DNA of 64,000 bases from an uncultured Candidatus Saccharibacteria bacterium (GTDB lineage: Bacteria; Patescibacteriota; Saccharimonadia; Saccharimonadales; Saccharimonadaceae), in NCBI GenBank assembly GCA_947166125.1, contig CAMVCW010000003.1, positions 62,001 through 126,000 of the forward strand, given 5' to 3'. Positions 2,887 to 59,783 of the stretch are shown here, in pieces (position 1 is the stretch's first letter; every line of letters starts with the position of its first letter). The notes beneath the pieces were generated by a model, which saw nothing but the letters and a program-made list of their open reading frames with translations, did not search any database and was not told where the DNA came from. A program made the translations under genes and the position numbers.

Positions 2887-2895
2887 TGCTATAAT
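2887..2895 (+). promoter_or_regulatory. leaderless promoter of arcC
   Basis: Extended -10 element TGC-TATAAT; the hexamer ends six bases before the arcC ATG. Confidence 0.75.
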
Positions 2896-2901
2896 AACTA
2901 T

Positions 2902-3843
2902 ATGAAAAAACGTATTGTCTTAGCACTTGGCGGCAACGCCCTCCAAAAAAATGGCGAAGCTACTGCCGAAGCTCAAAAAAAAGTCGCCATCGAAGTTGGT
3001 GAAGTTGTCGCAAAATTAGCTAGCAAATATGAAATTATCGTTGCTCACGGCAATGGCCCACAAGTTGGCAATATCTTAATCCACGAAGAACAAGCTTCTA
3101 CCGAAAAAGCTCCGGCCATGCCACTAGAAACTGCTGTAGCCATGAGTCAAGGCCAAATTGGTTATTGGCTTACCCAAGCCATCAATAATGCTTTTGCCAA
3201 AAATGGCAAAAAAGCCAAAGTCGCCACCATTATTTCCCAAATAGTAGTAGACCGCGACGATCCGGCTTTCAAAAATCCTACCAAGCCCATCGGTCAATTC
3301 TACAATGAAAAACAGGCTAAAGCCTTGGCCAAAGTTACCGGTTGGACAGTCAAAGAAGATGCTGGCCGTGGCTGGCGTCGCGTAGTAGCTAGTCCTAAAC
3401 CTATCGATATCGTAGAAAAACGCACGATCCTAGAACTCGTCAAAGACGGCATTATTGTAATCGCCGCTGGCGGCGGTGGTATTCCAGTTACTCGCACTAA
3501 AGTCCTCAAGAGATTAAAAGGCGTAGACGCTGTCATAGACAAAGATTACGCCGCCGAAAAGCTTGCCGAAGAGACTAGAGCCGACATCTTTGTTTCCGTC
3601 ACCGCCGTACCTAATGTTTTTATTAATTACGGCACACCGGGGCAAACCGCTCTCCACAAAGTCACCATCAAAGAATTAGAAAATTACCGCAGACACAATC
3701 AATTTAAAGCCGGCTCTATGCTCCCCAAAGTAGAAGCCGCCATGAAATTTGCTAGCAAAAAAGATCGCACCGGCATCATCACCGACATAGAACACCTAAG
3801 CGAAGCTTTGCAAGGCAAAGCCGGCACAATAGTTAAAAAATAA
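2902..3843 (+). CDS. arcC: carbamate kinase
   Basis: 313 aa. Transfers phosphate from carbamoyl phosphate to ADP, making the ATP of the arginine deiminase pathway. Motifs: ALGGNALQ at residues 8-15, HGNGPQVGN near 49-57 and AAGGGGIPV near 190. It is divergent from argF with a 79-bp gap. TGC-TATAAT lies at 2887-2895 with six bases before the ATG, so transcription probably starts at the A of the start codon. No Shine-Dalgarno site is present. It is separated from the argF-arcA mRNA, so its expression can be set independently. Confidence 0.97.
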   Translation: MKKRIVLALGGNALQKNGEATAEAQKKVAIEVGEVVAKLASKYEIIVAHGNGPQVGNILIHEEQASTEKAPAMPLETAVAMSQGQIGYWLTQAINNAFAKNGKKAKVATIISQIVVDRDDPAFKNPTKPIGQFYNEKQAKALAKVTGWTVKEDAGRGWRRVVASPKPIDIVEKRTILELVKDGIIVIAAGGGGIPVTRTKVLKRLKGVDAVIDKDYAAEKLAEETRADIFVSVTAVPNVFINYGTPGQTALHKVTIKELENYRRHNQFKAGSMLPKVEAAMKFASKKDRTGIITDIEHLSEALQGKAGTIVKK

Positions 3844-4035: not shown

Positions 4036-5162
4036 TTTTCCAATAATTTACGCAACTCTAGCTTATATTTCTCCACTCCTGGCTGGTCAAACGGATTCAC
4101 ACCAATCAACTTCGCACTCACCGCACAGGTTAATTCAAAGAAATAAACCAATTCCCCGAACCCTTTCTCATCAAACGAAGGCACACTAATATTTAGTACT
4201 GGTATTCCACCTTCTGTATGCGCTATCCTTACCGCCGCCACAATCTTCGCATTCAAATCATCCGTCGGATAATCGATAATTGTTTCAAACAAATTTCTTC
4301 GCCCATCTTGAATATATTGCCCCAAAGAATGCAAATCCGTAGAATAAATCAGCGAATCCGGCAAAATTCCCCGTTTTTCCTTCCCTTCACTTTCGCCAAA
4401 CAATTGTTTTAGCCATTCATTAAAATATACCGTAGCTGGCTCAAAACTAGCAAACATCTCCGTATCATAGCCCTTGCTATCCAAAGTATAACGCATATAG
4501 GCGTAGTTCAAGGCTGGCTCTACTGCTGTTTCCACGGCCTCCGCCGCACCTTCCAGTAGCTTAGAAATATCCACCCCCGCCACCGCCATAGGTAACAGCC
4601 CCACTGCAGTCAGTACCGAATATCTCCCCCCGATATTATCCGGTACCACAAATCTTGTATAGCCATTTTCTACCGCTTCATCGTGCAGTGCTCCCTGCTT
4701 CGCATCCGTCGTAGCATATATCCGCGTCATCGCTTCTTCCGCGCCATATTTTTCAATTAATTTCTTTTTAAACGCCTCAAACGCTATTGCCGGCTCCAAA
4801 GTTGTACCAGATTTCGAAATCACATTAATAGAAAAATCATGGTCCCCTACTTTTTCTAGCGCCCATTCTAGCTCGCGTTTACTTAGCGAATTACCTGCGT
4901 AAATAATCTTGGTTTCAGATTTTGGCCTAAGCGCCTCTATCACCGCCCTGTGCCCCAGATACGATCCACCAATTCCAATACATACCAAATATTCACTTTC
5001 TTCATTAATCTTTGCCGCCGCCTCTTTTATCCTGGCAAACTCCCCCATATCATATTTTTTTGGAAGCTCCATCCATCCGCCCATCGCATCTTTCTTAATT
5101 TCCGCCAAAATCCTCTGCGCCTGCGCCTTGTCTACTTCTGCGTTGAAATTAACTTTTATCAT
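4032..5162 (-). CDS. pgi: glucose-6-phosphate isomerase, short form
   Basis: 376 aa against roughly 450-550 in most bacteria. Interconverts glucose 6-phosphate and fructose 6-phosphate in glycolysis. Signature stretches: IGIGGSYLGHRA near residue 63, SKSGTTLEP near 116 and DNIGGRYSVLTAVGLLP near 174. The shortening is spread along the protein, so it looks like a compact ortholog, not a broken gene. The promoter TGA-TATAAT is at 5185-5193 and a ribosome site GGAGGTAGA lies right before the ATG, so this gene has a short leader of about 17 nt. Confidence 0.93.
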   Translation of the reverse strand: MIKVNFNAEVDKAQAQRILAEIKKDAMGGWMELPKKYDMGEFARIKEAAAKINEESEYLVCIGIGGSYLGHRAVIEALRPKSETKIIYAGNSLSKRELEWALEKVGDHDFSINVISKSGTTLEPAIAFEAFKKKLIEKYGAEEAMTRIYATTDAKQGALHDEAVENGYTRFVVPDNIGGRYSVLTAVGLLPMAVAGVDISKLLEGAAEAVETAVEPALNYAYMRYTLDSKGYDTEMFASFEPATVYFNEWLKQLFGESEGKEKRGILPDSLIYSTDLHSLGQYIQDGRRNLFETIIDYPTDDLNAKIVAAVRIAHTEGGIPVLNISVPSFDEKGFGELVYFFELTCAVSAKLIGVNPFDQPGVEKYKLELRKLLEK

Positions 5163-5184
5163 TCTACCTCCAATTTATACCGAA

Positions 5185-5193
5185 ATTATATCA
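5185..5193 (-). promoter_or_regulatory. pgi promoter (-10)
   Basis: Extended -10 TGA-TATAAT followed by a short leader containing GGAGGTAGA immediately upstream of the pgi ATG. Confidence 0.7.
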
Positions 5194-7782: not shown

Positions 7783-7791
7783 TGCTATAAT
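7783..7791 (+). promoter_or_regulatory. leaderless promoter of the 7798 gene
   Basis: TGC-TATAAT with six bases to the ATG; TTGACT at 7761 may be the -35 (19-bp spacing). Confidence 0.75.
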
Positions 7792-7797
7792 AAACTT

Positions 7798-8439
7798 ATG
7801 CAAACCTACCGTAAACTATTCCACAATTATTTAGAAGACAAACTAAAACTCCAAAACTACCAAAAACTCGGCATTATTTTCTTGCTCGTAGTCATCTCTG
7901 GGGTTTTCGGCTGGGTATATGAGTTTATCTTTTATTATTTCAATGGCGGCATGCAAGAATGGTATATGCAAGGCGGCAATTTCCTCCCCTGGATTAATAT
8001 CTACGCCATCGGCGGTTTACTAATTCTATTTACCACCTACAAATTCAAAAAGCACCCACTAGCAGTATTCCTCATCGCCTTTTTCGCTACCGGCATTTTA
8101 GAACTTGTCGCTGGCTGGCTAGTCTACACTCTAGGTCACGGCACCAGATACTGGGATTACAATACCGAAATCCTCAATTTCGGCAACATTGGTGGTTTTG
8201 TTTGTCTTAGAAGCGTTCTGTTTTTTGGTATCTCTGCACTATTCTTGATGTATGCCATCGTGCCATTTTGTATTTTTCTATCACAAAAACTCAGCCGCCG
8301 CGCCTTCCTCATTCTTGCCATCACATTGTTTAGCCTAGTTATGTTAGATGAGTTCGGCAATCTCGCCGCCAAAATCTTCGGCCTCCCCACCGCCATGGAT
8401 TTCTACCGCTCCCTAGGCCTACATTATATGAGCTCTTAG
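7798..8439 (+). CDS. CmpB-like (putative ABC-transporter type IV) membrane protein
   Basis: 213 aa with five hydrophobic helices. The GWVYEFIFY helix, the INIYAIGGLLIL stretch and the ELVAGW helix resemble the family PF06541, annotated as a putative ABC-transporter type IV membrane protein; the true role of that family is unclear. No ATPase gene is adjacent. Leaderless start: the -10 box ends six bases before the ATG. It ends convergently, overlapping the next gene's stop by four bases. Confidence 0.65.
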   Translation: MQTYRKLFHNYLEDKLKLQNYQKLGIIFLLVVISGVFGWVYEFIFYYFNGGMQEWYMQGGNFLPWINIYAIGGLLILFTTYKFKKHPLAVFLIAFFATGILELVAGWLVYTLGHGTRYWDYNTEILNFGNIGGFVCLRSVLFFGISALFLMYAIVPFCIFLSQKLSRRAFLILAITLFSLVMLDEFGNLAAKIFGLPTAMDFYRSLGLHYMSS

Positions 8440-9344
8440 GAATTCAGTGTTGTAATTTTCTTAAAATCTACTGCTTCTACCGCCTTGCGCAAAGCCGCTT
8501 CGTTACCATAATGCGTCTGCTGTCCTGGCGCATCGCTAAGCATGTGCTGTGCAAACGGAAAACATGCCACGCGCTCCAACACCGCCCCAAATTTACCCGT
8601 AGTAGCCGTCGCCGCCTCCGCCACCGCTACATCCGCCAAAGGCACTTCTAGTGCTTGCTTCATTTCTTCTGGGAAGAAAGTTAAAGAAAACAAATCGCCA
8701 TCTGCTTCCCCCGCTAACCGCCCATAGGCAATAGAAGTATTACCTTCTATCCATAATCTCTGGTTTAGCGGTTTCATTTTCGCTTTCATTAGGTTTGCTT
8801 GGCATTTTACTTTTTTCTTACCATCCAAGCTTTTCATATCACATACAAAATCACCCTCACACGTAGTGGTCATTACGGCGGCTTTCACATCTGGCGATTT
8901 CAACCCATGCTTTTCATCATAAGAAATGCTATCGCTAATATAATCCATCATTACCCAACTTAGTAGTCCAGTTGCAGTGTTTTCTGCCACCAAGTAATAC
9001 TCTGCCCTAGCGCCCCAAAACACACTAGTATGTATTCTAAACATACTCACTATTCCGTAATATTTTTCTGGACCACCTTCAAATACTGCAGACTTTGCCG
9101 GCACAAATCCATCCGGCATAAATTTTTGCACTTTTGTAGGATCAGGTATTTCGTAGAACAAGAAAGAACAATACGGCTCCACCACGAACGGCATTTTATT
9201 TGCCTTTTTTGTGGCACTCGTCACAATTTTTCTTTGTAACCATACCGGCAACTTCTTCAGCCTAGTTTGCATATAATGCGATGTCCCCACCGCCATTGGA
9301 TCTACTAGTTTTTCCACCCCTTTTGCATATTCTAATACGTTCAT
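8436..9344 (-). CDS. hypothetical protein, possibly acetoacetate-decarboxylase-like fold
   Basis: 302 aa, no signal peptide or clear membrane helix. The stretch from about residue 50 to 150 (PYCSFLFYEIPDPTKVQKFMPDGF, then a beta-rich region) loosely resembles the acetoacetate decarboxylase-like superfamily, but no catalytic motif can be named and this is a weak guess. The gene follows pepN by two bases yet has its own -10 box (TGC-TATAAT) inside the last pepN codons, six bases before its ATG. It may therefore be made both from the pepN mRNA and as a leaderless transcript. Confidence 0.55.
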   Translation of the reverse strand: MNVLEYAKGVEKLVDPMAVGTSHYMQTRLKKLPVWLQRKIVTSATKKANKMPFVVEPYCSFLFYEIPDPTKVQKFMPDGFVPAKSAVFEGGPEKYYGIVSMFRIHTSVFWGARAEYYLVAENTATGLLSWVMMDYISDSISYDEKHGLKSPDVKAAVMTTTCEGDFVCDMKSLDGKKKVKCQANLMKAKMKPLNQRLWIEGNTSIAYGRLAGEADGDLFSLTFFPEEMKQALEVPLADVAVAEAATATTGKFGAVLERVACFPFAQHMLSDAPGQQTHYGNEAALRKAVEAVDFKKITTLNS

Positions 9345-9346
9345 GC

Positions 9347-11716
9347 TTATATTATAGCATCTAGTTCCGTGTGCACCGCTTTTTTATCTGATTTGATCAA
9401 TTCCATTCTCGCTGCAATTTCTTTCTTGCCGATTGTAATCGCTCGCGCCAGCGCAGGATCATCTTTCATTTTGTCAAAGAAATCTTTGTATTTCGCAAAA
9501 TCTTCTTCCGTCTTTACGCTACTTGCAATGTAGCGTGGATAATTATCAAGCGATTTATCTCCCGCCATATTTTTTACATAATCCCAATTCTGCGTTAACC
9601 ATGTAAACACTTTTTCTTTACTCCGTGGATTACGATATAAATATAAGAATAGATAAAACTGGTCTTGCGGCTTTACTACTTCTGGCTGATTTAATAGTGC
9701 TATCATTTTATCTAGTGCTACCATATCTTTTGCTAAAGTTCCGGCCATCATCAAATCAAACTTTATTTCCGGATCTGCCATATTTTTATATTTTTCTATA
9801 TAGTTATCAACAACTTCTGGGTCCATGTATACTTTTGCATCCAAAATATCTTCCCGAATTTCTGCATCTAGCTTACCATAATTCTCGTTATACATTGCAG
9901 CCAACTTTTGCAAGTTTTCTTCCGTTTCCGCATAAAAATCCAATCCCAAAAGTATCGCCCTTAGTCTAATAATATTTTCATCATCTTCTTTTCGTGTGGT
10001 TAGGCCAATTTCTTTAAGTTTTGGCGCCACCAGTTCCCCTACATACTTTTTAAACTTCTTTTCTTCCGCCGAACCAAACTCAAAGAAAATCTTCAAATTA
10101 GAAATAATTGCCAAAATAATATTCCATACCGCAGCCGCATTTTCATTTTTAAACTTCTGTACTAGCGGTAATAGTGATGCACTATCCGCAAGTTTCGTTC
10201 TCGTCACTAGGTCGCGGTCTATTAGTAGTCTTAGTTTCTCTTCCAAATCTAGCTTATCAAACCGCGTCAATCTCTCTTCAAATTCCGCTTCCGACAAATT
10301 CAAAATATAATGCCCAGACATATCCTCATTAATTTCTGGTAGCGGCCAACTCTCATCTTTTAGTGGCCCATCCAGCAAAAACCTCTGCTGCTTATCACCC
10401 GTCACCACCGGATATCCAGGCTTATCTATAAATGCATGCATTAATTTCTTCGGGTCAAAGTTTGCGTAAGGTTTCAAACTTTCCCACAAATCATCCCCCA
10501 CCGTATTCTGATATTTAAATTTCTCAAAGTAATCCCGTATACCTTTACAAAAATCTTCCCAGCCCATTGCACGTATCAGCATCAGCATCAATCTAGCACC
10601 CTTCGCATAGACAATCGCCGGGTCAAAAAGCGTTGCAATTTCTTCTGGATTATTTACATCTTGGTGCACAGATTGCACATCGGTATACGCGTCTCGCCTT
10701 AGCGCCGCTAAAGCATCTCCAGTGAAAAATCCTTCAAAAATCTTATATTCTGGGTGGATATAATCTACCGCGTAATATTCCATCACGCTCGCAAAAGATT
10801 CGTTCAGCCACAAATCATCCCACCATTTCATTGTCACGAGATCCCCAAACCATTGATGAGATAATTCATGTGCCACGGTAAGTGCTATACTCTTTTTTGT
10901 GCCAAGCGTCGCATTTTTACCGGCTAGAAGCATGCTCTCACGATAAGTCACTAGCCCCCAGTTTTCCATTGCCCCTGCTTCAAAATCCGGTAATGCTACC
11001 TGATCCAATTTCTTTAAAGGATACGGCACGCCAAAATTATCGTCATAAAATTCCAACGACTTCGCCGCTATTTCATTAGCAAAATCTACTGTATCTATAT
11101 TTTGATTGAGTGCCGCATAAGTTGTAATTTCCACTCCATGCGCATTTTTGATAGTTTTTCCATGAAACTTGCCAATCGCCCAAGCCAAAAGATACGTACT
11201 CATCCGCGGTGTCGGTTCAAAAATAGTTTTATTACCACTCTTTTCTAATGCCGGCGTATTTGCAATTACCATATCATCCGAACCTTCCGAAGCAGAAATA
11301 GAAAGTTTAAACACCGCCTTGGCCTCTGGTTCATCTATACACGGAAACGCCTCTCTAGCATAGTGACTCTCAAATTGTGTCGCCACTATTACCTCTGTTT
11401 TACCATCATACTCATAGGTAGAAAGGTACGCTCCCTGCATATTTTCGTTCAAATGGCCGTGATATCCTATTTCTACCGTCAAATCGCTCCTAGGTACCTT
11501 AAATACCGTCAAAACGCCATCTGCTACTTCAAATTTAGCATTTTTTCCATTTATCACCACCGAATCAACAGATAAGCCCACCGCATGAAATTTGATATTT
11601 TCCGCTTTTGCGCTCCCCTCCACCATTACTATCCCACCAATAGTTTTAGCAAATTTATCTATCTCAAGATCCAGAATATATTTTTCTGGCACAAAATAAT
11701 CAATTAGTCGCTCCAT
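9347..11716 (-). CDS. pepN: M1 family aminopeptidase
   Basis: 789 aa. Zinc metallo-aminopeptidase that trims N-terminal residues from peptides, probably in the cytoplasm since no signal peptide is seen. Shows the exopeptidase motif GAMENWG near residue 251 and the zinc site HELSHQWFGD with the downstream Glu in WLNESFA (near 308). For an amino-acid auxotroph it would free amino acids from imported peptides, and its closeness to the arginine pathway fits. GGAGGTAAA precedes the ATG. Intact. Confidence 0.93.
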   Translation of the reverse strand: MERLIDYFVPEKYILDLEIDKFAKTIGGIVMVEGSAKAENIKFHAVGLSVDSVVINGKNAKFEVADGVLTVFKVPRSDLTVEIGYHGHLNENMQGAYLSTYEYDGKTEVIVATQFESHYAREAFPCIDEPEAKAVFKLSISASEGSDDMVIANTPALEKSGNKTIFEPTPRMSTYLLAWAIGKFHGKTIKNAHGVEITTYAALNQNIDTVDFANEIAAKSLEFYDDNFGVPYPLKKLDQVALPDFEAGAMENWGLVTYRESMLLAGKNATLGTKKSIALTVAHELSHQWFGDLVTMKWWDDLWLNESFASVMEYYAVDYIHPEYKIFEGFFTGDALAALRRDAYTDVQSVHQDVNNPEEIATLFDPAIVYAKGARLMLMLIRAMGWEDFCKGIRDYFEKFKYQNTVGDDLWESLKPYANFDPKKLMHAFIDKPGYPVVTGDKQQRFLLDGPLKDESWPLPEINEDMSGHYILNLSEAEFEERLTRFDKLDLEEKLRLLIDRDLVTRTKLADSASLLPLVQKFKNENAAAVWNIILAIISNLKIFFEFGSAEEKKFKKYVGELVAPKLKEIGLTTRKEDDENIIRLRAILLGLDFYAETEENLQKLAAMYNENYGKLDAEIREDILDAKVYMDPEVVDNYIEKYKNMADPEIKFDLMMAGTLAKDMVALDKMIALLNQPEVVKPQDQFYLFLYLYRNPRSKEKVFTWLTQNWDYVKNMAGDKSLDNYPRYIASSVKTEEDFAKYKDFFDKMKDDPALARAITIGKKEIAARMELIKSDKKAVHTELDAII
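9351..9359 (-). promoter_or_regulatory. leaderless promoter inside the end of pepN
   Basis: TGC-TATAAT on the minus strand formed by the last sense codons of pepN; six bases to the ATG of the 8436-9344 gene. Confidence 0.7.
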
Positions 11717-15993: not shown

Positions 15994-18402
15994 TTATTTT
16001 TTAAACCTATATGCTCTAAATGTACCACTATTATCATAAAAATCACCAATTTCACCAGTTCTATCACAGTTAGAAGCCGAAGCAATATATGGCTCACCTT
16101 TTATTTCTACATACATTTCTACGTGCCCATCACTAATTCTGATATCACCAGGCTGCAATACGCCCAATTTATTTTCCACTTCTACATATTTTTCTGGATG
16201 CGCCAACATATAATTTTCCAAAGTACTCACCACACAGCATTCATAATCTTTATCCACACCAGAATAACGCATCACCGTAGTCACAAACACGTCACAGCTG
16301 GTACCAGTTTCCACACATCTATCACCCCAAGAACCAAATCCTACGTCAGACAAAGCTTTCGCGTATGCCGGTGTTGGGTTAAATGGCCCGTGTCCATGTT
16401 CTGGCCACGCCAATTCTATAGCCGTGGCATTTAAATCTCCGTTGCCACCACCGGTAGCACAGAAACTACTGCCACCTTGCCTTTTCACGGCTACATCCAC
16501 ATATTTCCAAATATCACCAGGGTCAGTATGATCATTATCCGGCACGTGCATATGCCCAAGTACGCCCTTATATTCCACAAATTCCTGATCACTCAATCTC
16601 TTAGTGCCATCCGCCCAACTCACCGAAGAGGTCAAGGGGATATCTGTTTCCTCAGAGATCGCCTGCAAAATTTTCGCCAAATAATCCCAATCTTCATCGG
16701 AAAAATTCTGCAAATATGCGTCTTCAGAAAATCCAGCACTGCTTGGCGTACTAAATCCTACAATCTCTATCTGAATTGGACCAGACTTATCATGATCCGC
16801 AATCGCTAGCGATGGTTGATAAATTGAAAAATGTTGCGACACAGTCTTTTTTCTTGGATCCAATGTGAAATGCGCCGGATATTTATTATCGCCATATGCC
16901 GCAAATCCACTCGTAGTACCTTCTGTGCTATGCAATAATATCTTGTTTGGCTTGCCATCACTTGTAATGTAACTCCCTACCGGATTTACTGGCTCTCTCA
17001 AATCATCCCTGCCAGTCACGTCTTCCCGAACCAATCCAGGAATTGAACCTTCCGCTATCCAACCATCTTCCCATTTCACACCCGTACCAGTAGGATCACA
17101 ACAAATACTAGCGCTACCATGATAATTACCAAATTTCGTTACAATCGCCTGGCCCTCCGCGGAATCTATATACTTTTGCAAAGCATCCACGGATTTTTTC
17201 ATAGACTCAATTGTGCTATACCCGGCGCCGTTTGGATCACCCTGCACCCATAGCGGGCCAATTTTTTCCAAGTATTCCTTCGGATCCGTAATTCCATGCA
17301 CCGGACTATACCAATCACTAGACAACGTTTCACCGTATTGCGCAAAACCTTCACCTAAATTCTTACCCTGAATAGTGGAACCACCTCTGTATGCATGACT
17401 AGAATCACAACCATTACCCCAAAAGTTATTCGTACCACATACTGAGTTCGGATCTTCGTATCGCATTTGTACCAAAATCGCCACCCACGGCGCACCCACC
17501 GCTTCACCAAGCTGATATGCCAAATCGCCATAATTTTCCAGTAATTTTTTCATGTTTTCTTCATCACCATCTGCCCACATCGCCGACCACTGCGAATAAT
17601 CCTCCACATCAAATACGTTCTCATTTGCATTTTTTGCTGCATAAACTGCAGAATAATCCGCGCTGCCAGCACTACCAGACGACACGCTCACGCGCATACT
17701 TGTAACTTCATTTACTGCTTCGCGTACTATCTCGGCAAGTTTTTCTGATCCAGCCGCTGTAGGGTGAATATTGTCAGACTCCATATACTTTGCAGGGTCC
17801 GCCGAAGCCGCCGCATACCAATCCATATACGAAATATTGTCATAATCCTCCGCAGCTTTTTTCACTACTTCGTTTGAGCTATTCATTTGTTTTTCCGCAA
17901 ACCCATTCGCGTAATAAATCGTCGTCAAAATAATTTTCAAATCTTTATCTTTCGTGGCATCAAGCAATTTATTTATGTCGTCATTAGTAATTCCGCCGTT
18001 ACTTCCTAATGCAAAAACCAAAATATTCTGATTTCCTATTTCCTTAATACGATCCACGCCACTCACCAACCCTGGCTGGTTTTCTGCAAACCAAATGCTA
18101 GATTGCGCATTTATAGTAATATTCGGCAACTCCTCCTTAATATAAGATTCACTCAGTACCGTGTCAGAATCACCTATCATATATACATCACTACCATCCG
18201 AATTACCATTGCCAGTAGATTCCACACAATTACCCGCTTCTGGATCATAAAAATATGAGTGGTCCAGGCTCGCCGCACGTAAATTCTCCTGCTTCAAAGC
18301 CGTCACTGGCGCCACCAAGGTAGCTAAAGAGTAAAATATAGCAGTTATTAAACACCAAAAAACTACCACCTTTTTTCTATTTTTCCGCAAAATAGAATCC
18401 AT
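15994..18402 (-). CDS. four-domain cell-wall hydrolase (SGNH esterase, glucosaminidase-like, amidase, NlpC/P60-like)
   Basis: 802 aa with an N-terminal signal/anchor helix (residues 11-33). About 70-235: SGNH domain with GDS (Ser79) and D210/H213 in SDNIHPT, as in O-acetyl-peptidoglycan esterases. About 275-425: lysozyme/glucosaminidase-like region with VQMRYED and NNFWG. About 470-640: amidase 2 fold with H491 and DHTDPGD near 624-630. About 680-802: CHAP/NlpC-like domain with C703 and H760. Together they could deacetylate glycan, cut glycan strands and cut stem peptides. Leaderless promoter; first gene of an operon. Acting on a host wall is inferred; domain order is seen. Confidence 0.8.
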   Translation of the reverse strand: MDSILRKNRKKVVVFWCLITAIFYSLATLVAPVTALKQENLRAASLDHSYFYDPEAGNCVESTGNGNSDGSDVYMIGDSDTVLSESYIKEELPNITINAQSSIWFAENQPGLVSGVDRIKEIGNQNILVFALGSNGGITNDDINKLLDATKDKDLKIILTTIYYANGFAEKQMNSSNEVVKKAAEDYDNISYMDWYAAASADPAKYMESDNIHPTAAGSEKLAEIVREAVNEVTSMRVSVSSGSAGSADYSAVYAAKNANENVFDVEDYSQWSAMWADGDEENMKKLLENYGDLAYQLGEAVGAPWVAILVQMRYEDPNSVCGTNNFWGNGCDSSHAYRGGSTIQGKNLGEGFAQYGETLSSDWYSPVHGITDPKEYLEKIGPLWVQGDPNGAGYSTIESMKKSVDALQKYIDSAEGQAIVTKFGNYHGSASICCDPTGTGVKWEDGWIAEGSIPGLVREDVTGRDDLREPVNPVGSYITSDGKPNKILLHSTEGTTSGFAAYGDNKYPAHFTLDPRKKTVSQHFSIYQPSLAIADHDKSGPIQIEIVGFSTPSSAGFSEDAYLQNFSDEDWDYLAKILQAISEETDIPLTSSVSWADGTKRLSDQEFVEYKGVLGHMHVPDNDHTDPGDIWKYVDVAVKRQGGSSFCATGGGNGDLNATAIELAWPEHGHGPFNPTPAYAKALSDVGFGSWGDRCVETGTSCDVFVTTVMRYSGVDKDYECCVVSTLENYMLAHPEKYVEVENKLGVLQPGDIRISDGHVEMYVEIKGEPYIASASNCDRTGEIGDFYDNSGTFRAYRFKK

Positions 18403-18408
18403 ACCCTA

Positions 18409-18417
18409 ATTATAGCA
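18409..18417 (-). promoter_or_regulatory. leaderless promoter of the wall-hydrolase operon
   Basis: TGC-TATAAT on the minus strand with six bases to the ATG at 18402. Confidence 0.75.
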
Positions 18418-18459: not shown

Positions 18460-20484
18460 TTATTCAAACACCGGCAAGTCATCCGGAAACGGATCAAAAT
18501 CCCCACCAGAAAAATCATCAAAATCATCTTCGGAAAAATCCTTAAATCCATCCCCATCTTCGTCTTTATATCCCGCCGAACCATACGGGTTATATCCTAG
18601 TTCCGTCAAAAACCTTGACGGCATATTATAATTCCGACTTCCATATGAATATCTACTTGCCGCATAGGTCAAAAACAATTTTCGCATCGCCCGCGTCATT
18701 CCCACATAGGCCAGGCGTCGTTCTTCTTCTAGCCCTGCCTCATCTTCACTGGCTCGACCACTCGGAAATAAGCCTTCTTCCATTCCCACCATAAATACTA
18801 CCGGAAATTCTAGCCCCTTTGCCGCATGCAAAGTCATTAAAGTCACCGAATTTTTTACCACACTTTCATCCGCACTAGACATCAGGCTTGCATCCGCCAA
18901 AAAATCTTCCAGCTTATCATAAGCCGCCGCGTTACTTACTAAGACTTCCAAGTTCGCCATTCGCTCTTCACCGCTTGGCGTGCCGTCATCCGTCAAAGTT
19001 TTAAAATCAAAATATTCAATCACCTTTTTTACAATTTCACCCGGATTATCATCTAGTGAAATCTTTTTCACAAAATTCACTAATTTTCCAAATCCATTCT
19101 TTGCTTTTGCTGCGCTTAAAACTTCTAGAATATCCGGATTTTTCAAAGGTTCATCATCTGGTAGTGCATCAATCGCCATCAAAATTTTACCTAACGACAC
19201 TTCGCCCACTCCAGAAATCACATTTTTTACCACGCGCTCCAAACTCACTTTGTCGCGCCCACTAATTAATAATTTCAAAATCGCCAGTACATCTTTTACT
19301 TCCTTACGATCATAAAATCTCACACCACCCACAATCTTATACGGAATATGCATATTGATAAACGCTTTTTCAAAAGTATACGATTGTGCGTTCGTCCGAT
19401 ATAGCACCGCAAAATCACTATAATCCGGATACTGCCTCTGCATATTCATAATTTTAAGCGCTACATAATTTGCTTCTTCCGCCTCATCGCGCAAAGATTC
19501 AATCTCTACTGGCTCACCATTCCCAATTTCCGTAAACAAAGTTTTATCCGTCCGCGTTTTATTTTTATTAATTATTTTTTGCGATGCAGCCAGTATGCAG
19601 CCAGTAGAACGATAGTTCTGCTCTAATTTAATAACTTTTGCGCCCGGATAATCACGCTCAAAATTCAAAATATTTGTGAAATCCGCTCCTCGCCACGAAT
19701 AAATAGACTGCCAATCGTCCCCCACCACACAAATATTCTTCCGTTCATTTACCAAAAGTTTCACAATATTATATTGCACCACGTTAGTGTCCTGATATTC
19801 GTCTATCAAAATATGCTTAAACTTTTCTTGCCACTTTTTTCGTACACTTGGATTTTTTTGCAAAAGTTCCAATTCTCTCAAAAGCAGATCATCAAAATCT
19901 AGTGCCCCAACTTTAGTTTTTTCTTCTTCATATCGTCGAAAAACTTTCGCAATGTTATGCTGATTCGGATATAACGCCCCCGCCGCATATTCGTCTGGCC
20001 CATTACCTTGATTTTTCTCGCTTGAAATAATTGCCTGAATAGATTTCGGTTTCAAATTTTTATTGTCTGTTAATTTTAGATCTTTTAAAATGCGCTTAAT
20101 CAAAGAAACCTGATCATCCGCATCATATATTACAAAGTTTCTGTCCAATCCAGCCGCATCTGCTTCAATCCGCAAAATTCGCACCGCAATTCCATGAAAA
20201 GTTCCCATATACGGCATAAATGAGCGCGGCGGATCAATTTCTCCATCAGTATCCGGTTCTAATATCCCCCACAATCTTACTCGCATCTCGTTTGCGGCCT
20301 TATTAGTAAACGTCACCGCCAAAATATTACTAGGCATCACACCATGAGCTATCAAATTCGCAATCCGGTGTGTCAAGGTTTTCGTTTTACCAGATCCCGC
20401 ACCAGCAAGTATCAAAAGCGGCCCTTCCAAAGTCTCTACCGCTTCTTTTTGCGCCGGATTTAAACCTCCTAGAATCGTATCCAT
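18460..20484 (-). CDS. pcrA: UvrD/PcrA-type DNA helicase
   Basis: 674 aa. ATP-driven 3'-5' helicase of superfamily 1, used in repair and in removing proteins from DNA. Motifs in order: LNPAQKEAV (Q motif), GAGSGKTKTLTHR (Walker A, about 27-39), TFHGIA, DEYQDTN (about 230), WQSIYSWRGAD, LEQNYRS, VTLMTLHAAKGLEFPVVF and EERRLAYVGMTRA. The C-terminal 40 residues are Asp/Gly-rich (DEDGDGFKDFSEDDF), replacing the usual polymerase-binding tail. Leaderless promoter TGA-TATAAT six bases before the ATG. Confidence 0.93.
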   Translation of the reverse strand: MDTILGGLNPAQKEAVETLEGPLLILAGAGSGKTKTLTHRIANLIAHGVMPSNILAVTFTNKAANEMRVRLWGILEPDTDGEIDPPRSFMPYMGTFHGIAVRILRIEADAAGLDRNFVIYDADDQVSLIKRILKDLKLTDNKNLKPKSIQAIISSEKNQGNGPDEYAAGALYPNQHNIAKVFRRYEEEKTKVGALDFDDLLLRELELLQKNPSVRKKWQEKFKHILIDEYQDTNVVQYNIVKLLVNERKNICVVGDDWQSIYSWRGADFTNILNFERDYPGAKVIKLEQNYRSTGCILAASQKIINKNKTRTDKTLFTEIGNGEPVEIESLRDEAEEANYVALKIMNMQRQYPDYSDFAVLYRTNAQSYTFEKAFINMHIPYKIVGGVRFYDRKEVKDVLAILKLLISGRDKVSLERVVKNVISGVGEVSLGKILMAIDALPDDEPLKNPDILEVLSAAKAKNGFGKLVNFVKKISLDDNPGEIVKKVIEYFDFKTLTDDGTPSGEERMANLEVLVSNAAAYDKLEDFLADASLMSSADESVVKNSVTLMTLHAAKGLEFPVVFMVGMEEGLFPSGRASEDEAGLEEERRLAYVGMTRAMRKLFLTYAASRYSYGSRNYNMPSRFLTELGYNPYGSAGYKDEDGDGFKDFSEDDFDDFSGGDFDPFPDDLPVFE

Positions 20485-20490
20485 CCTACG

Positions 20491-20499
20491 ATTATATCA
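20491..20499 (-). promoter_or_regulatory. leaderless promoter of pcrA
   Basis: TGA-TATAAT on the minus strand, six bases before the ATG. Confidence 0.75.
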
Positions 20500-20528: not shown

Positions 20529-20537
20529 TGATATAAT
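20529..20537 (+). promoter_or_regulatory. leaderless promoter of HTH-murA
   Basis: TGA-TATAAT with seven bases to the ATG at 20545. Confidence 0.75.
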
Positions 20538-20544
20538 TATTCTC

Positions 20545-22095
20545 ATGAAAAAGCCTAAGACTTATCAACAAGTTATCGGTGAAACCGTAGAACACATGCG
20601 TATCAAAAAAGGTTGGACTCAAGACGAGCTTGCCAAAGCCGTCGGCTCTTCTCAATCCGCCATTCATCGCATCGAAAAAGGCGGCCAAAACATTTCCTTA
20701 GAAATGATCAAAAAACTCTCCGAAGCCTTAGGCAACCAAATCCTCTCTATCAACGATTCCGTTTCTCAAAGTTTTCGCATCCGTGGCGGCAAAGAACTCT
20801 CTGGTGAAATCACCGTCAACACATCAAAAAATGCCGCCGTTGGTCTGCTTTGCGCAGCTTTGCTTAACGAAGGTCGCACAGTACTCCACCGTGTAGCTCG
20901 CATCGAAGAAGTCTTTCGCATTATTGAAGTTTTAGAATCTATCGGCGTTAAATGCCATTGGCAAAATCGCCATCGCGATCTAGAAATTATATCACCTCGC
21001 GAATTAAAACTAGACAAAATGGATATCGAAGCCGCTCGTCGCACTCGTTCCATCATTATGTTTTTGGGGCCGCTTTTGCACCGTTTCGCAAAATTCCAGC
21101 TCCCCTACGCTGGTGGCTGCTCTCTAGGTACGCGCACCGTAGAACCTCATCTTAAGGCTTTAGAAACTTTCGGTCTTAAAGTGGACGCCGAAAGCAATAG
21201 TGGTTTTTACGAAGTAGAAGTAGATCAACGCATCCTACACGACAAAGAAGATCGTTACATTGTCCTTACCGAACGCGGCGACACCGTCACAGAAAATGTC
21301 TTAATGGCCGCCGCTCTTTTCCCAGGCAAAACTACCATCATTGGCGCCTCGCCAAATTATATGGTACAAGATGTTTGTTTCTTCTTAGAAAAACTTGGTG
21401 TTAAAATCACCGGCATCGGTACCACCACACTTACTATTTATGGTCGCCCTCGCATCAATGTAGATATCGATTATCATCTTTCCGAAGATCCTATCGAAGC
21501 CATGTCTTTCATTGCTGCAGCCCTCGTCACCAATTCAGAAATCACCCTACTTCGTGCGCCAATCGAATTTCTAGAAATTGAACTAGAAGTCCTAAAAAAC
21601 ATGCACGCCAAATTTGAAAAATCCCCTGAATATACTTCCATGAACGGTCGTACACGTCTAGTAGATCTTACCATCAAAAAATCCCAGCTCGTAGCCCCCG
21701 TAGACAAAATCCACCCTATGCCTTTCCCTGGTCTAAACATAGATAATTTGCCATTCTTTTCCGTAATCGCCGCCGTAGCCGAAGGTCGCACCCTCATCCA
21801 TGATTGGGTTTTTGAAAATCGCGCCGTCTATACTACTGAACTCGCTAATCTCAACGTCAAAGTGGAGCTTCTAGATGCCCACCGTGTTTACATTGAAGGC
21901 CCCACCAATTGGCGCTCAGCTGAACTTGTCGCTCCGCAAGCTCTCCGTCCGGCGGTCGTTATCCTAATTGGCATGCTTGCCGCACCAGGCACTTCAATCT
22001 TACGCAATATTTATCCCATCAATCGCGGCTATCAAGATTTCGCCGCCCGCCTTCGCCACCTTGGTGCCGATATCGTACCGCTTACTGGTATTTAA
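20545..22095 (+). CDS. murA: MurA with an N-terminal Xre-type HTH domain
   Basis: 516 aa. Residues 7-70 form a Cro/C1-type helix-turn-helix (GWTQDELAKAVGSSQSAIHRIEKG). From about 76 on is UDP-N-acetylglucosamine enolpyruvyl transferase: GGKELSGEITVNTSKNAA (catalytic K95, N96) and AGGCSLGTRTVEPHL with Cys192 at the place of the fosfomycin-reactive Cys of E. coli MurA. The enzyme starts peptidoglycan precursor synthesis. Fusion to a DNA-binding domain suggests an enzyme that also regulates transcription, or an enzyme-derived regulator that senses UDP-GlcNAc. The join is continuous, with no frameshift. Convergent with pgk, stops overlapping by four bases. Confidence 0.9.
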   Translation: MKKPKTYQQVIGETVEHMRIKKGWTQDELAKAVGSSQSAIHRIEKGGQNISLEMIKKLSEALGNQILSINDSVSQSFRIRGGKELSGEITVNTSKNAAVGLLCAALLNEGRTVLHRVARIEEVFRIIEVLESIGVKCHWQNRHRDLEIISPRELKLDKMDIEAARRTRSIIMFLGPLLHRFAKFQLPYAGGCSLGTRTVEPHLKALETFGLKVDAESNSGFYEVEVDQRILHDKEDRYIVLTERGDTVTENVLMAAALFPGKTTIIGASPNYMVQDVCFFLEKLGVKITGIGTTTLTIYGRPRINVDIDYHLSEDPIEAMSFIAAALVTNSEITLLRAPIEFLEIELEVLKNMHAKFEKSPEYTSMNGRTRLVDLTIKKSQLVAPVDKIHPMPFPGLNIDNLPFFSVIAAVAEGRTLIHDWVFENRAVYTTELANLNVKVELLDAHRVYIEGPTNWRSAELVAPQALRPAVVILIGMLAAPGTSILRNIYPINRGYQDFAARLRHLGADIVPLTGI

Positions 22096-23158: not shown

Positions 23159-24592
23159 CTATACGTAGCGCACTTTTATCGTATCTGTACCAATTTTATC
23201 TTTATCACCAGACACAATTACTGCCAAAAGCTCTTCTTCATCATCTTTGGTATGCAAATATTCCGAATCTTTCAATTCTTTAGCCAAATCAAATCCAAAA
23301 TCTGGAGAATATGGCCGCACAAATGCCGAATTTGCATATATTAATGCCAACTGATTTGCCGCACGAGTATTTTCGGTCACCGTAATAATTGGTACATTTG
23401 GCCGCTGCGCCGCCATCGTCATAGCCGTAAGCCCAGATGCCGTCTGACACACTATCGTATCTGCATCAATATTTTCTGCCAATCGTGCCGCAGCATTAGA
23501 AATCGCATCATAAATCCGCTCTTTCGTTACTGGTGGTCGTGAAATCGGCGCCAAACGTGAGTGATTCTGTGTATACAAAATCACCTTTTTCATCGCTTTC
23601 ACGGTTTCCAAAGGATATTTTCCGTTTGCGGTCTCATCAGAAAGCATCACCGTATCCGCGCCCTGCACTACCGCTGTTGCCACGTCCGATACTTCCGCCC
23701 GAGTCGGTTCTGGCGAATCCACCATCGAACTTAGCATTTGCGTCGCCACAATACAAAGCTTGGCATTAGCACGACACATCGCAATTAATTTACGTTGGAT
23801 AATTGGCACCACCTCAGCACCGGCTTCCACTGCCATATCACCACGCGCCACCATGATGCCGTCCGCTGCTTTTACAATTTCCTCCAAATGTTCTTCGCTT
23901 TCTATCGCTTTTTTGGTCTCAATTTTCGCTACTACTTTAGCCGTAGAACCAAGCGATTTCAAAAGCTCCTTTAATTTCACAATATCACTCGCCGACTGCA
24001 CAAAAGAAAGCGATACATAGTCATAGTCACATTTTGCACCGTATTCAATATCCGACAAATCTTTTGGCGTCAAAATATCACCGCCAAAATCCGTATCCGG
24101 CAAATTTAATCCTTTTTTAGACATAATAAAACCATCATTTAACACCTTCACTTTAATGGCTGTGTCAGACACGATATCTATTACTTCGCTTTTCACTTTA
24201 CCATCAAACATAGATAGCGGTTCACCCACCTTTACCTTTTCCGCCAAATTATATTGCACCGGCACCGTCATCCCGCCGTCATGTTCAAATCCTTCTGCTG
24301 CTTCTAGTATTAATTCATCGCCAACTTTCAAATCCAGATGATTATCTTTGATAAACCCCAAGCGGATTTTTGGCCCCTGCAAATCTTGCAAAATCGCCAC
24401 GCTGCGGCCTTTTTTCGCCGCCGCTTCACGAATCCACTGTATTTGCTGGTCGCGCTCCTCATTAGACCCATGCGAACAATTCAATCTACAACCATTCACA
24501 CCAGCCATTATTACTTCTTCAATTTTTTCAGCCGAATTCGTCGCCGGCCCAATTGTTGCCAAAATTTTTGTTCGTTTAAAAAGTTTACTCAT
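23159..24592 (-). CDS. pyk: pyruvate kinase
   Basis: 477 aa. Converts phosphoenolpyruvate and ADP to pyruvate and ATP. Motifs: TIGPAT near the start, LNCSHG, LQDLQGPKIR, the active-site stretch KIETKKAIE..IMVARGDMAVE, and ATQMLSSM. Carries a C-terminal domain of usual length. First gene of pyk-pgk; TGG-TAAACT ends seven bases before the ATG, another likely leaderless start. Confidence 0.95.
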   Translation of the reverse strand: MSKLFKRTKILATIGPATNSAEKIEEVIMAGVNGCRLNCSHGSNEERDQQIQWIREAAAKKGRSVAILQDLQGPKIRLGFIKDNHLDLKVGDELILEAAEGFEHDGGMTVPVQYNLAEKVKVGEPLSMFDGKVKSEVIDIVSDTAIKVKVLNDGFIMSKKGLNLPDTDFGGDILTPKDLSDIEYGAKCDYDYVSLSFVQSASDIVKLKELLKSLGSTAKVVAKIETKKAIESEEHLEEIVKAADGIMVARGDMAVEAGAEVVPIIQRKLIAMCRANAKLCIVATQMLSSMVDSPEPTRAEVSDVATAVVQGADTVMLSDETANGKYPLETVKAMKKVILYTQNHSRLAPISRPPVTKERIYDAISNAAARLAENIDADTIVCQTASGLTAMTMAAQRPNVPIITVTENTRAANQLALIYANSAFVRPYSPDFGFDLAKELKDSEYLHTKDDEEELLAVIVSGDKDKIGTDTIKVRYV

Positions 24593-24599
24593 ATATACT

Positions 24600-24608
24600 A
24601 GTTTACCA
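24600..24608 (-). promoter_or_regulatory. probable leaderless promoter of pyk-pgk
   Basis: TGG-TAAACT on the minus strand, seven bases before the pyk ATG; a weaker hexamer than most here. Confidence 0.55.
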
Positions 24609-24622: not shown

Positions 24623-24631
24623 TGATAAGAT
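24623..24631 (+). promoter_or_regulatory. leaderless promoter of the 24638 gene
   Basis: TGA-TAAGAT with six bases to the ATG. Confidence 0.65.
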
Positions 24632-24637
24632 ATAGAT

Positions 24638-25093
24638 ATGGCTTATGCTAAAAATCACAGCCGCAAACTTCACGCCTCAAAGGCTCGTTTTTTAGCGTCT
24701 CGCACACCGAATCCTGCGTGCAAAATCATCCTCACAGTAATCATCTCGACCATCGCAATAGTCGCTATCGTTCTATTTTGTGTTCCATTTTTCAGTCGCG
24801 AGCATCTTACCAAATCTCAAATTTCTATCCTCGCCACCGATTATTACGAAAACTATTTTTATCCAAACGTTTTTTCCGGCGGCAAAGATATGTCCGAAGT
24901 TTTAGGCCGTTACGCAGACTCTGGCCTTGCCAAAGTTTCCTTGCGCCAATTAATTTTATCTAGCAACGATTCATCCGCCGCCAATTTACGTCAATACTGC
25001 GACGAAAATTCTACCTTTGTCCAATTTTATCCAGAAGATCCGTTTAACAAAACCTCTTACCGCACCGAATTCACCTACTCTTGCAATTTCTAA
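24638..25093 (+). CDS. single-helix membrane protein of unknown function
   Basis: 151 aa. Basic N-terminus (residues 1-29), one hydrophobic helix (30-52), then an extracellular domain of about 95 residues ending TEFTYSCNF with two Cys (YCDEN and SCNF) that could form a disulfide. Not recognised. A similar plan, with a basic N-tail, one helix and a short outer domain, recurs in several genes of the window. Leaderless start. Confidence 0.65.
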   Translation: MAYAKNHSRKLHASKARFLASRTPNPACKIILTVIISTIAIVAIVLFCVPFFSREHLTKSQISILATDYYENYFYPNVFSGGKDMSEVLGRYADSGLAKVSLRQLILSSNDSSAANLRQYCDENSTFVQFYPEDPFNKTSYRTEFTYSCNF

Positions 25094-25875: not shown

Positions 25876-27876
<2,001 letters not shown>

Positions 27877-27880
27877 CTAT

Positions 27881-27889
27881 ATTTTATCA
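27881..27889 (-). promoter_or_regulatory. leaderless promoter of ligA
   Basis: TGA-TAAAAT on the minus strand with seven bases to the ATG. Confidence 0.65.
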
Positions 27890-34839: not shown

Positions 34840-35361
34840 CTAGACGACAATCTCTTCAATTCTCTCCACCACTTCCCCCAAAATCTCCGGTAACTTTTCC
34901 TTCTCTTCTGGTGTGAATTTAGAAAGCACAAAATCCATATCCCCCATTTTACGCCTTAGTTCATCATTCCCAGTACCTAAGCGCAACCTCGCAAACTCAT
35001 CCGTACCTAGTGTAGAAATTATAGATTTCAGCCCATTATTCCCCCCAGCCGAACCCTGCGCCCTATAACGAATTTTCCCAAATTCCAAATTAAAATCATC
35101 GCACACCACTAAAACATCATCTAACGAAATCTTATAAAACCGCATAAATTCCTGCACTGCTCGCCCACTTTCATTGTAATAATCCTGTGGTTTAATAAAA
35201 ATCGTATCCCCCTCACGCCCCCACACTGCCCCAAATTTTGGCTTATCCTTCCACTCTATTCCGCGCACTTTAAAGTAACAATCTAACGCAAGAAACCCAA
35301 AATTATGCCGCGTAAAATTATACCGACTACCAGGGTTTCCCAAACCTACTACTAATTTCAT
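34840..35361 (-). CDS. pth: peptidyl-tRNA hydrolase
   Basis: 173 aa. Frees tRNAs from prematurely released peptidyl-tRNA. Motifs: VGLGNPGSRYNFTRHNFGF (His20 region), NESGRAVQEF, CDDFNLEFGKIRYR and GSAGGNNGLKSI. Leaderless: TGT-TATAAT with six bases to the ATG, whose upstream T run also serves the phoH terminator. Confidence 0.96.
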   Translation of the reverse strand: MKLVVGLGNPGSRYNFTRHNFGFLALDCYFKVRGIEWKDKPKFGAVWGREGDTIFIKPQDYYNESGRAVQEFMRFYKISLDDVLVVCDDFNLEFGKIRYRAQGSAGGNNGLKSIISTLGTDEFARLRLGTGNDELRRKMGDMDFVLSKFTPEEKEKLPEILGEVVERIEEIVV

Positions 35362-35367
35362 ATCTGT

Positions 35368-35376
35368 ATTATAACA
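35368..35376 (-). promoter_or_regulatory. leaderless promoter of pth
   Basis: TGT-TATAAT on the minus strand, six bases before the ATG, directly downstream of the phoH terminator T run. Confidence 0.75.
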
Positions 35377-36989: not shown

Positions 36990-38321
36990 TTACTTATCGC
37001 TACGGTATGAAAACATTATCGGTGTCCCCATAAACGGATATTTTTCCCGAATTTTCCGCTCCAAAAATCTCTTCCAAGACCAATGCAAAAGCCCTAAGTC
37101 ATGTCCATGCACCACAAACCACGGCGGGCAAGTATCTGTCTGCACGATATACTTCGGTTTTGGCCGTGTGTTTTTTAACCCTGCGGGCGGATGAGCCACT
37201 ATCGCTTCGTTCAAAATTTTATTAAGATCTGAGGTCCTGATTTCCAAGTGTCTATTCGCGTCAATTTCTAGCGCTAATTCAAAAAGTTGCGTCACATTTT
37301 CACCTGTTTCAGAACTAGTGATTAGTACAGGCGCATACGGCAAAAAGTCAAAATCTTTTTCCAAACTATCTATCAAGAAATCCGCCGCCGTGCGATTCCC
37401 TACATTTTCTTCACCAAAATAATTTGTCGGCGTAGATTCATCCAAAAGATCCGACTTTGTCACCACCATAATAATACCCTTACCGGCCTCCACGATCTGC
37501 CCCGCCAAAGATTGGTCTAACTTACTATGTGGCTCCGTAGAATCCACCAACAAAGCACAAATATCCGCTTCTTCTATCGCCGCAAGCGTCCGAATCGCCG
37601 AGAATTTCTCAATCCCCACCTCACGCTTACCAGGCTTTCTCAGCCCCGCCGTATCCAAAATTTCCAATTCCCGCCCCTTATATTTTACCGTCACCCGATT
37701 GATATCCCGCGTTGTCCCCTGCCGACTAGACACTATCGCTTGTTGTTTTTTACCAAGCGTATTAAATAGCGAAGATTTCCCCACATTTGGCCGCCCAATC
37801 AAGGCAATTTTCAAAACATCATCATTTTGCGAAACTTTACCCTTTGGCAATACACTTTTTAATTTATTAATCCCCTGCCCAGTAGTAGCAGATACATAAT
37901 AAATATTTTCCGGCGCAATTCCTAGAGCCCGAAATTCCGTCACCGGCAAAGATTCACCCAAATCGCACTTATTTAGCACCAAATACACCGGCTTACCAGA
38001 GCTTAGCGCATCCTTTGCAATCCTCGCATCACGATGATCAAAATACTTCGCCGAATCCAGCGTCACCAATATCACATCCGCCGCATCAATCGCATCGGCA
38101 ATTTGATCTTGAATTGATGCCTCAAAATCATCATTTGGGTCTTTCAACCCAGCCGTATCTATCAAGATAAAAGAATCATCAATCGTTGCCATCACGTTAT
38201 CACGCGTAGTACCTTCTTCGCGCGCCACAATCGCGATATTTTTGTGCGCCATACGATTAAGAATGCTAGATTTCCCAGCATTTGTTTGTCCGATCAACGC
38301 TACAATTGGCAACTTTTTCAT
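36990..38321 (-). CDS. der: ribosome-assembly GTPase Der (EngA)
   Basis: 443 aa. Tandem GTPase domains needed for 50S subunit maturation: first G domain GQTNAGKSS, DTAGL and NKCD; second GRPNVGKSS, DTAGL and TKSD; then a C-terminal KH-like domain. The first P-loop has Gln-Thr where Arg-Pro is usual. Leaderless promoter TGC-TATAAT, six bases upstream. Confidence 0.96.
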   Translation of the reverse strand: MKKLPIVALIGQTNAGKSSILNRMAHKNIAIVAREEGTTRDNVMATIDDSFILIDTAGLKDPNDDFEASIQDQIADAIDAADVILVTLDSAKYFDHRDARIAKDALSSGKPVYLVLNKCDLGESLPVTEFRALGIAPENIYYVSATTGQGINKLKSVLPKGKVSQNDDVLKIALIGRPNVGKSSLFNTLGKKQQAIVSSRQGTTRDINRVTVKYKGRELEILDTAGLRKPGKREVGIEKFSAIRTLAAIEEADICALLVDSTEPHSKLDQSLAGQIVEAGKGIIMVVTKSDLLDESTPTNYFGEENVGNRTAADFLIDSLEKDFDFLPYAPVLITSSETGENVTQLFELALEIDANRHLEIRTSDLNKILNEAIVAHPPAGLKNTRPKPKYIVQTDTCPPWFVVHGHDLGLLHWSWKRFLERKIREKYPFMGTPIMFSYRSDK

Positions 38322-38327
38322 ATCTAA

Positions 38328-38336
38328 ATTATAGCA
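38328..38336 (-). promoter_or_regulatory. leaderless promoter of der
   Basis: TGC-TATAAT on the minus strand, six bases before the ATG. Confidence 0.75.
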
Positions 38337-39953: not shown

Positions 39954-39962
39954 TGCTATAAT
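39954..39962 (+). promoter_or_regulatory. leaderless promoter of the 39969 gene
   Basis: TGC-TATAAT with six bases to the ATG; this fixes the start of the gene. Confidence 0.75.
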
Positions 39963-39968
39963 AAATAT

Positions 39969-40931: not shown

Positions 40932-40940
40932 TGTTATAAT
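40932..40940 (+). promoter_or_regulatory. leaderless promoter of gltX
   Basis: TGT-TATAAT with seven bases to the ATG at 40948. Confidence 0.75.
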
Positions 40941-40947
40941 ATAATAT

Positions 40948-43403: not shown

Positions 43404-43412
43404 TGTTATAAT
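43404..43412 (+). promoter_or_regulatory. leaderless promoter of the 43421 gene
   Basis: TGT-TATAAT with eight bases to the ATG. Confidence 0.65.
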
Positions 43413-43420
43413 ATTGTCAT

Positions 43421-46058: not shown

Positions 46059-46064
46059 AATAAA

Positions 46065-46073
46065 ATTATAGCA
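46065..46073 (-). promoter_or_regulatory. leaderless promoter of the sortase gene
   Basis: TGC-TATAAT on the minus strand, six bases before the ATG. Confidence 0.75.
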
Positions 46074-50572: not shown

Positions 50573-50581
50573 TGTTAAAAT
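50573..50581 (+). promoter_or_regulatory. leaderless promoter of the 50588 gene
   Basis: TGT-TAAAAT with six bases to the ATG; divergent from the metK promoter. Confidence 0.7.
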
Positions 50582-50587
50582 AAAAAT

Positions 50588-54487: not shown

Positions 54488-54493
54488 ACTTTT

Positions 54494-54502
54494 ATCATAT
54501 CA
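54494..54502 (-). promoter_or_regulatory. leaderless promoter of the DUF2207 gene
   Basis: TGA-TATGAT on the minus strand with six bases to the ATG at 54487. Confidence 0.6.
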
Positions 54503-56480: not shown

Positions 56481-56486
56481 TTCTCT

Positions 56487-56495
56487 ATTATATCA
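56487..56495 (-). promoter_or_regulatory. leaderless promoter of smpB
   Basis: TGA-TATAAT on the minus strand with six bases to the ATG at 56480. Confidence 0.75.
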
Positions 56496-59771: not shown

Positions 59772-59777
59772 ACATCC

Positions 59778-59783
59778 ATTATA
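59778..59783 (-). promoter_or_regulatory. leaderless promoter of the GT8-plsC-GT8 operon
   Basis: TATAAT on the minus strand (no TG extension) with six bases to the ATG at 59771. Confidence 0.65.

Follow-up and report, generated by a model that had tools for sequence, protein, structure and literature searches.

Extended -10 promoters at a fixed short distance from ATG predict leaderless mRNAs for a large minority of genes in an uncultured Saccharibacteria genome

A large minority of the genes in this genome very probably give rise to leaderless mRNAs: an extended -10 promoter would set the transcription start (+1) at the A of the ATG, and translation would be independent of a Shine-Dalgarno (SD) sequence. 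The promoters have the form TRTGnTATAAT, and are presumably read by the only sigma factor that we detect in the genome. With the box placed in this way, RNA polymerase would begin at the A of the ATG and make a leader-free mRNA whose 5' terminus is the AUG itself; that AUG would be recognised for translation independently of any SD. Other genes would carry an identical -10 about 15-35 nt upstream, which leaves a short leader with just enough room for an SD. In other bacteria, leaderless AUGs are handled by 70S or fMet-tRNA-loaded ribosomes and IF2. We infer where the mRNAs begin, and how ribosomes bind to them, from features read directly in the genomes, namely the motif, its spacing, a start-site signature, the restriction to AUG, the absence of SD, and the conservation and distribution of the arrangement.

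The window is the whole 64,000-nt stretch of DNA under analysis. An earlier note on it had listed 21 starts at which a -10 box lies 6-8 bases 5' of an ATG without an SD. We inspected each of them directly, with 45 bases upstream, and found the box at all 21, mostly in its extended form (Table 1). The first one, before arcC, occupies exactly the positions that the note had given, 2887-2904 (TGC TATAAT AACTAT ATG). An exact TGn-TATAAT at 6-8 nt from the ATG is present at 14 of the 21 starts, three others keep the TGn and have one mismatch (ligA at 27873, 50588, and DUF2207 at 54487), and two have TATAAT without the TGn, both at spacing 6 (59771 and 63422). The weakest two, pyk (24592) and 24638, have two mismatches.

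Table 1. Predicted leaderless starts in the window, and one SD-led start for contrast. Spacings (N) are counted from the box to the ATG.
Gene	Gene coordinates	Arrangement	Site coordinates	Strand	Predicted start	Remarks
arcC (carbamate kinase)	2902-3843	TGC-TATAAT-N6-ATG	2887..2904	+	leaderless	
7798	7798-8439	TGC-TATAAT-N6-ATG	7783..7800	+	leaderless	PF06541 match, putative ABC-transporter type IV
9344	8436-9344	TGC-TATAAT-N6-ATG	9342..9359	-	leaderless	starts 2 nt after preceding same-strand gene 9347-11716
18402	15994-18402	TGC-TATAAT-N6-ATG	18400..18417	-	leaderless	weak GDSL-lipase match
pcrA/UvrD-type helicase	start 20484	TGA-TATAAT-N6-ATG	20482..20499	-	leaderless	divergent from 20545
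HTH + EPSP-synthase-fold (MurA-like)	20545-22095	TGA-TATAAT-N7-ATG	20529..20547	+	leaderless	
pyk	23159-24592	TGG-TAAACT-N7-ATG	24590..24608	-	weak candidate	
24638	24638-25093	TGA-TAAGAT-N6-ATG	24623..24640	+	weak candidate	Pfam search without match
ligA	25876-27873	TGA-TAAAAT-N7-ATG	27871..27889	-	leaderless	
pth	34840-35361	TGT-TATAAT-N6-ATG	35359..35376	-	leaderless	
der	36990-38321	TGC-TATAAT-N6-ATG	38319..38336	-	leaderless	
39969	39969-40928	TGC-TATAAT-N6-ATG	39954..39971	+	leaderless	
gltX	40948-42387	TGT-TATAAT-N7-ATG	40932..40950	+	leaderless	19 nt behind preceding same-strand gene
PEGA domain (43421)	43421-44824	TGT-TATAAT-N8-ATG	43404..43423	+	leaderless or near-leaderless	
sortase	44844-46058	TGC-TATAAT-N6-ATG	46056..46073	-	leaderless	
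glycosyltransferase	50588-51820	TGT-TAAAAT-N6-ATG	50573..50590	+	leaderless	
CDP-alcohol phosphatidyltransferase	51817-52467	TGA-TATAAT-N6-ATG	51802..51819	+	leaderless	starts 4 nt inside upstream same-strand gene
DUF2207	52514-54487	TGA-TATGAT-N6-ATG	54485..54502	-	leaderless	18 nt behind upstream gene
smpB	56064-56480	TGA-TATAAT-N6-ATG	56478..56495	-	leaderless	
glycosyltransferase family 8	58950-59771	TATAAT-N6-ATG	59769..59783	-	box without TGn	
63422	63422-63817	TATAAT-N6-ATG	63410..63424	+	box without TGn	starts 3 nt after gene 59894-63418
4032 (contrast)	4032-5162	TGA-TATAAT 22 nt 5' of ATG, GGAGG between	5160..5193	-	SD-led (compact-leader class)	

Could the spacing simply arise from A+T-rich DNA 5' of the genes and from the many candidate starts that are read? 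TATAAT is indeed frequent in the source genome (1472 occurrences on both strands), which we analysed whole (816,580 bp in eight contigs, 41.7% G+C), and in the window the broad pattern TATAAT-N3-12-ATG is only modestly above shuffled sequence (27 vs. 16.8). The excess, however, belongs to particular spacings. The window contains 15 copies of TATAATN6ATG, whereas 100 dinucleotide shuffles give a mean of 1.66 and a maximum of 5. The genome-wide count of TATAAT-to-ATG distances against a control, which the earlier note had proposed, gives a sharp excess confined to 6 and 7: there are 116 cases at spacing 6 and 56 at spacing 7, with about 25 at other spacings and 24 for the reversed pattern of TATAATN6ATG. 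When only the most upstream ATG of each called gene is used, an exact TATAAT is found 59 times at spacing 6, 17 times at spacing 7, and 0-5 times at spacings 0-5. ATGs internal to genes show genome-wide no peak at 6 or 7 beyond the codon-phase rhythm, and a 50-kb piece of the E. coli K-12 genome yields 0 matches to the arrangement. This spacing-specific excess, together with the conservation in orthologs that we describe now, refutes the explanation by A+T content and chance, to which we give next to no probability.

The ortholog comparison includes 80 relatives, and the -10 was scored at 5-9 nt 5' of the aligned start. The closest named relative, as judged by Der, is Candidatus Nanosyncoccus alces (92%), and the other near relatives are mostly ruminant-gut Saccharibacteria MAGs. 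The box is found at 5-9 nt in 48/50 sortase orthologs (at a spacing of exactly 6 in 46 of them), 64/65 for gltX, 64/79 for der, 57/77 for pth, and 27/33 for 39969. For 43421 it is present in 47/58 orthologs at spacings of 6-9, and for ligA it is kept at spacing 7 in 2/4. As an SD-led control, gene 43328 has its SD in 35/37 orthologs, and in 28 its -10 is at least 18 nt away. The spacing is kept among orthologs while the bases between box and ATG diverge. Box columns have about 1.5-2 bits, most discriminator columns have less than 0.6, and a T or C nearly always precedes the ATG; the rows behind these bit values were chosen for having the box, and the values are hence biased, so that the ortholog fractions (such as 48/50) are the unbiased figures.

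The motif learned from the genome is TRTGnTATAAT, with the TG present at 85-88% even among sites picked solely for TATAAT. The promoter type is an extended -10 in which a T and an R precede the TG. We detect one sigma factor (a single Sigma70_r2 match in the genome), a protein of 324 aa with regions 1.2, 2, 3, and 4. Matches resembling a -35 accompany 46/101 leadered promoters; on leaderless promoters there are 49/198, little above the 21-31 at control positions. The distance from the -10 to the start is bimodal, 5-9 in genes without SD and mostly 15-35 in genes with SD, with 10-14 nearly empty, as expected if genes must have either no leader or one with room for an SD.

Where does transcription start? 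Independent evidence comes from 95 leadered promoters without a nearby ATG, where the 7th base past the -10 is an A in 75%, vs. 29-54% around it. At spacing 6 the A of the ATG is that 7th base, the same place as the leadered +1. The base preceding the ATG tells a similar story. In leaderless-type genes it is T in 82% and a pyrimidine in 94%, vs. T in 35% and A in 42% of SD genes, the pattern expected at a transcription start site. The T stands at 82% in spacing-6 genes and at 71% in spacing-7 genes; for spacings of 7 to 9 the start could be off by 1-3 nt. A 5-base SD match is absent in 197/198 leaderless-type starts genome-wide.

The same data bear on the proposal that these genes are transcribed from an unseen promoter farther upstream, as leadered mRNAs without SD that are translated via S1 or an unstructured site. 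The genome does encode a protein with four S1 domains, and some of the leaderless-type genes are within operons, where read-through from upstream is expected. Yet a -10 together with a T/A start signature tuned precisely to the ATG is hard to reconcile with it, as is the +1 offset shared with the leadered promoters of the genome. Read-through may contribute, but it leaves the conserved promoter unexplained, and we consider this proposal very unlikely.

A leaderless mRNA starting at the ATG also fits the codon usage at that position. Following TGnTATAATN6-7, we find ATG 114 times, GTG 6 times, and TTG 6 times, and other codons average 4-5 per spacing: GTG and TTG are near background, and ATG is almost exclusive. 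At least 101 of the 114 ATG sites are the start of a called gene, and among the rest several begin small ORFs. The preference for ATG over other codons speaks against a different possibility, that the -10 is genuine but translation bypasses the ATG at +1 and proceeds from a downstream in-frame start. An in-frame SD-led start does exist within 50 codons in 18/198 leaderless-type genes, but the rate is equal among SD genes (39/433). Moreover, the conserved N-terminal motifs of der, gltX, arcC, and pth begin at most a few residues from the ATG. Residue 1 of arcC aligns to residue 1 of the solved carbamate kinase 1b7b (M1 to M1), residue 1 of pth to residue 1 of several solved chains, and the alignments of gltX and der to solved homologs begin at residues 3-5 with the N-terminal motifs intact. 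We give the downstream-start alternative only a slight probability.

How many genes would be leaderless? Allowing any candidate ATG, 190/747 genes have a box at 5-9 nt, vs. 17-24 in shifted windows; these calls come from a home-made gene caller whose choice of starts is biased to signals, and the shifted windows put the ATG false positives at about 20 of the 190. With the most upstream start only, the box is present in 136 genes vs. 6-16 in shifted windows. Our net estimate is about 120-170 leaderless-type genes, or 17-23% (up to 25% uncorrected).

The earlier note had taken leaderless transcription to be the default for first genes. Leaderless remains the best reading of the starts concerned, but it is not the default: the 465 non-internal genes include about 153 (33%) of leaderless type and 252 (54%) of SD type, and where such genes have a recognisable extended -10 no more than 120 nt away, about half are leaderless. 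The companion claim, that operon-internal genes are SD-led instead, does not hold either. The leaderless arrangement is found in 45/269 genes directly behind a same-strand gene, and in the window the -10 lies within the preceding gene for 51817, and within the end of the preceding gene for 9344 and 63422.

We also considered a loss of SD-dependent initiation and rejected it, since the 3' end of the 16S (GGATTACCTCCTTTC) keeps the anti-SD (CCTCC), and most genes keep SD sites. With the anti-SD retained, and with the S1-type protein and a weak match to S21 also encoded, the ribosome is not obviously specialised and SD initiation is fully in use.

The arrangement is not restricted to this genome. 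The number of TGnTATAATN6-7ATG sites per genome has a median of 114.5 in the source genus (78-142; 16 genomes), 19 in other genera of the family (40 genomes), 11 in other families of the order (29 genomes), and 12 in other orders of the class (32 genomes). Summed over 262 Patescibacteria genomes from other classes, the sites number 2676 at N6-7 vs. 574 at spacing 12-13, a 4.7-fold excess; N6-7 is above spacing 12-13 in 235 of these genomes and below in 7. The promoter motif TRTGnTATAAT itself occurs 148-235 times per genome in the genus; the median is 25.5 elsewhere in the family and 9 in the order, and the motif in reverse, taken as a control, is similarly rare in the source genus and in the others. 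From these counts by group, the arrangement is phylum-wide at a low level, and amplified in the genus together with the strict promoter. The amplification is roughly ten-fold, although a looser -10 is undercounted by the strict pattern, and the contrast may thus partly reflect promoter strictness and not leaderless fraction.

For the genus around Nanosyncoccus, a tentative reading that we would not quite call probable is a genome-wide takeover of promoter architecture. A near-strict TRTGnTATAAT would have risen about 7- to 20-fold vs. other genera of the family or order, with more than 100 copies at the exact leaderless position, almost AUG-only, and with two hard-wired gene classes, one without a leader and one with a minimal SD leader. 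High counts are also seen outside the genus, with 106 TGnTATAATN6-7ATG sites in a genome from another genus of the same family (G403), and 43, 41, 33, and 32 in four others (G201, G315, G080, G161). These suggest repeated amplification.

Actinobacteria and Deinococcus-Thermus are already known to have leaderless genes in which the -10 lies next to the start (PMC3160421, PMC12340547, PMC4633059). In the leaderless genes that Zheng et al. 2011 described in bacteria, a 'TA-like' -10 precedes the start by about 12 bp, and such genes make up more than 20% of the total in the richest groups (PMC3160421). Our sites are alike in that the first T of the -10 is 12 nt 5' of the A of the ATG at spacing 6, and the SD is absent; a TG peak 5' of the box, like the one here, was seen in some low-G+C genomes, e.g., Lactococcus (PMC3160421). 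On the other hand, the promoter here is a near-strict TRTGnTATAAT amplified within one genus, and TM7 (Saccharibacteria) is not mentioned in the text of that paper. In Deinococcus-Thermus, a -10 at a fixed distance of a few bases from the ORF directs leaderless expression in reporters, and about 30% of ORFs are concerned (PMC12340547). The fixed short distance of the -10 before the ORF is shared, as seen here in sequence, but the motif there is TANNNT with an optional -35, whereas here it is an extended TATAAT, and matches resembling a -35 are mostly on leadered promoters. In mycobacteria, RTG is enriched exactly at the +1 of leaderless transcripts (Shell et al. 2015, PMC4633059). A 5'-terminal start codon (predicted here) and the absence of SD are common to both, but mycobacteria use ATG or GTG at +1, while here ATG is almost exclusive and GTG near background.

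In the literature that we searched, mostly without subscription papers, we found no report of leaderless genes in Saccharibacteria or Patescibacteria other than in references or in passing. PMC12641178 mentions leaderless mRNA solely for the ATPase YchF, and two papers on genetic work in cultured Saccharibacteria make no mention of such starts. What is new is the occurrence across Patescibacteria and the amplification in the genus; the mechanism itself is already known. Leaderless expression would thereby extend to a large and mostly uncultured share of bacterial diversity, at a frequency that differs several-fold between genera of one family. That variation makes it possible to test, on sister genera, whether leaderless initiation is an old remnant or evolved repeatedly. 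On the practical side, a motif of 15-18 bases can be used to predict where genes start in these episymbionts, as well as their promoters and expression cassettes, and start-calling software that looks for an SD will put some starts wrongly.

Some boxes in the window precede very small ORFs or tRNA genes. At 25823-25840 (- strand), TGC-TATAAT-N6-ATG opens an ORF of 8 codons and a stop (MVVRLSPS), after which come a GGAGG and the start codon (ATG) of 25367-25774. The ORF is possibly a leaderless leader peptide; the gene behind it is an orphan, present in 1/30 genomes of the genus. At 38447-38464 (- strand), between tRNA-Glu and der, a second TGA-TATAAT-N6-ATG opens only a 9-codon ORF. That box is kept in very near relatives (L046-L048) and mostly absent in others, and a small RNA or leader peptide may be expressed from it. 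Genome-wide, 32/46 tRNA genes have an extended -10, mostly 8-10 nt upstream of the mature 5' end. The leaders of precursor tRNAs would hence be very short, and short leaders would be general. Finally, in the sortase promoter region (46058-46106), a second and opposed extended -10-like box, ATGTTAAAAT (+ strand), faces tRNA-Leu at 46106, and the pair of boxes looks conserved in relatives.
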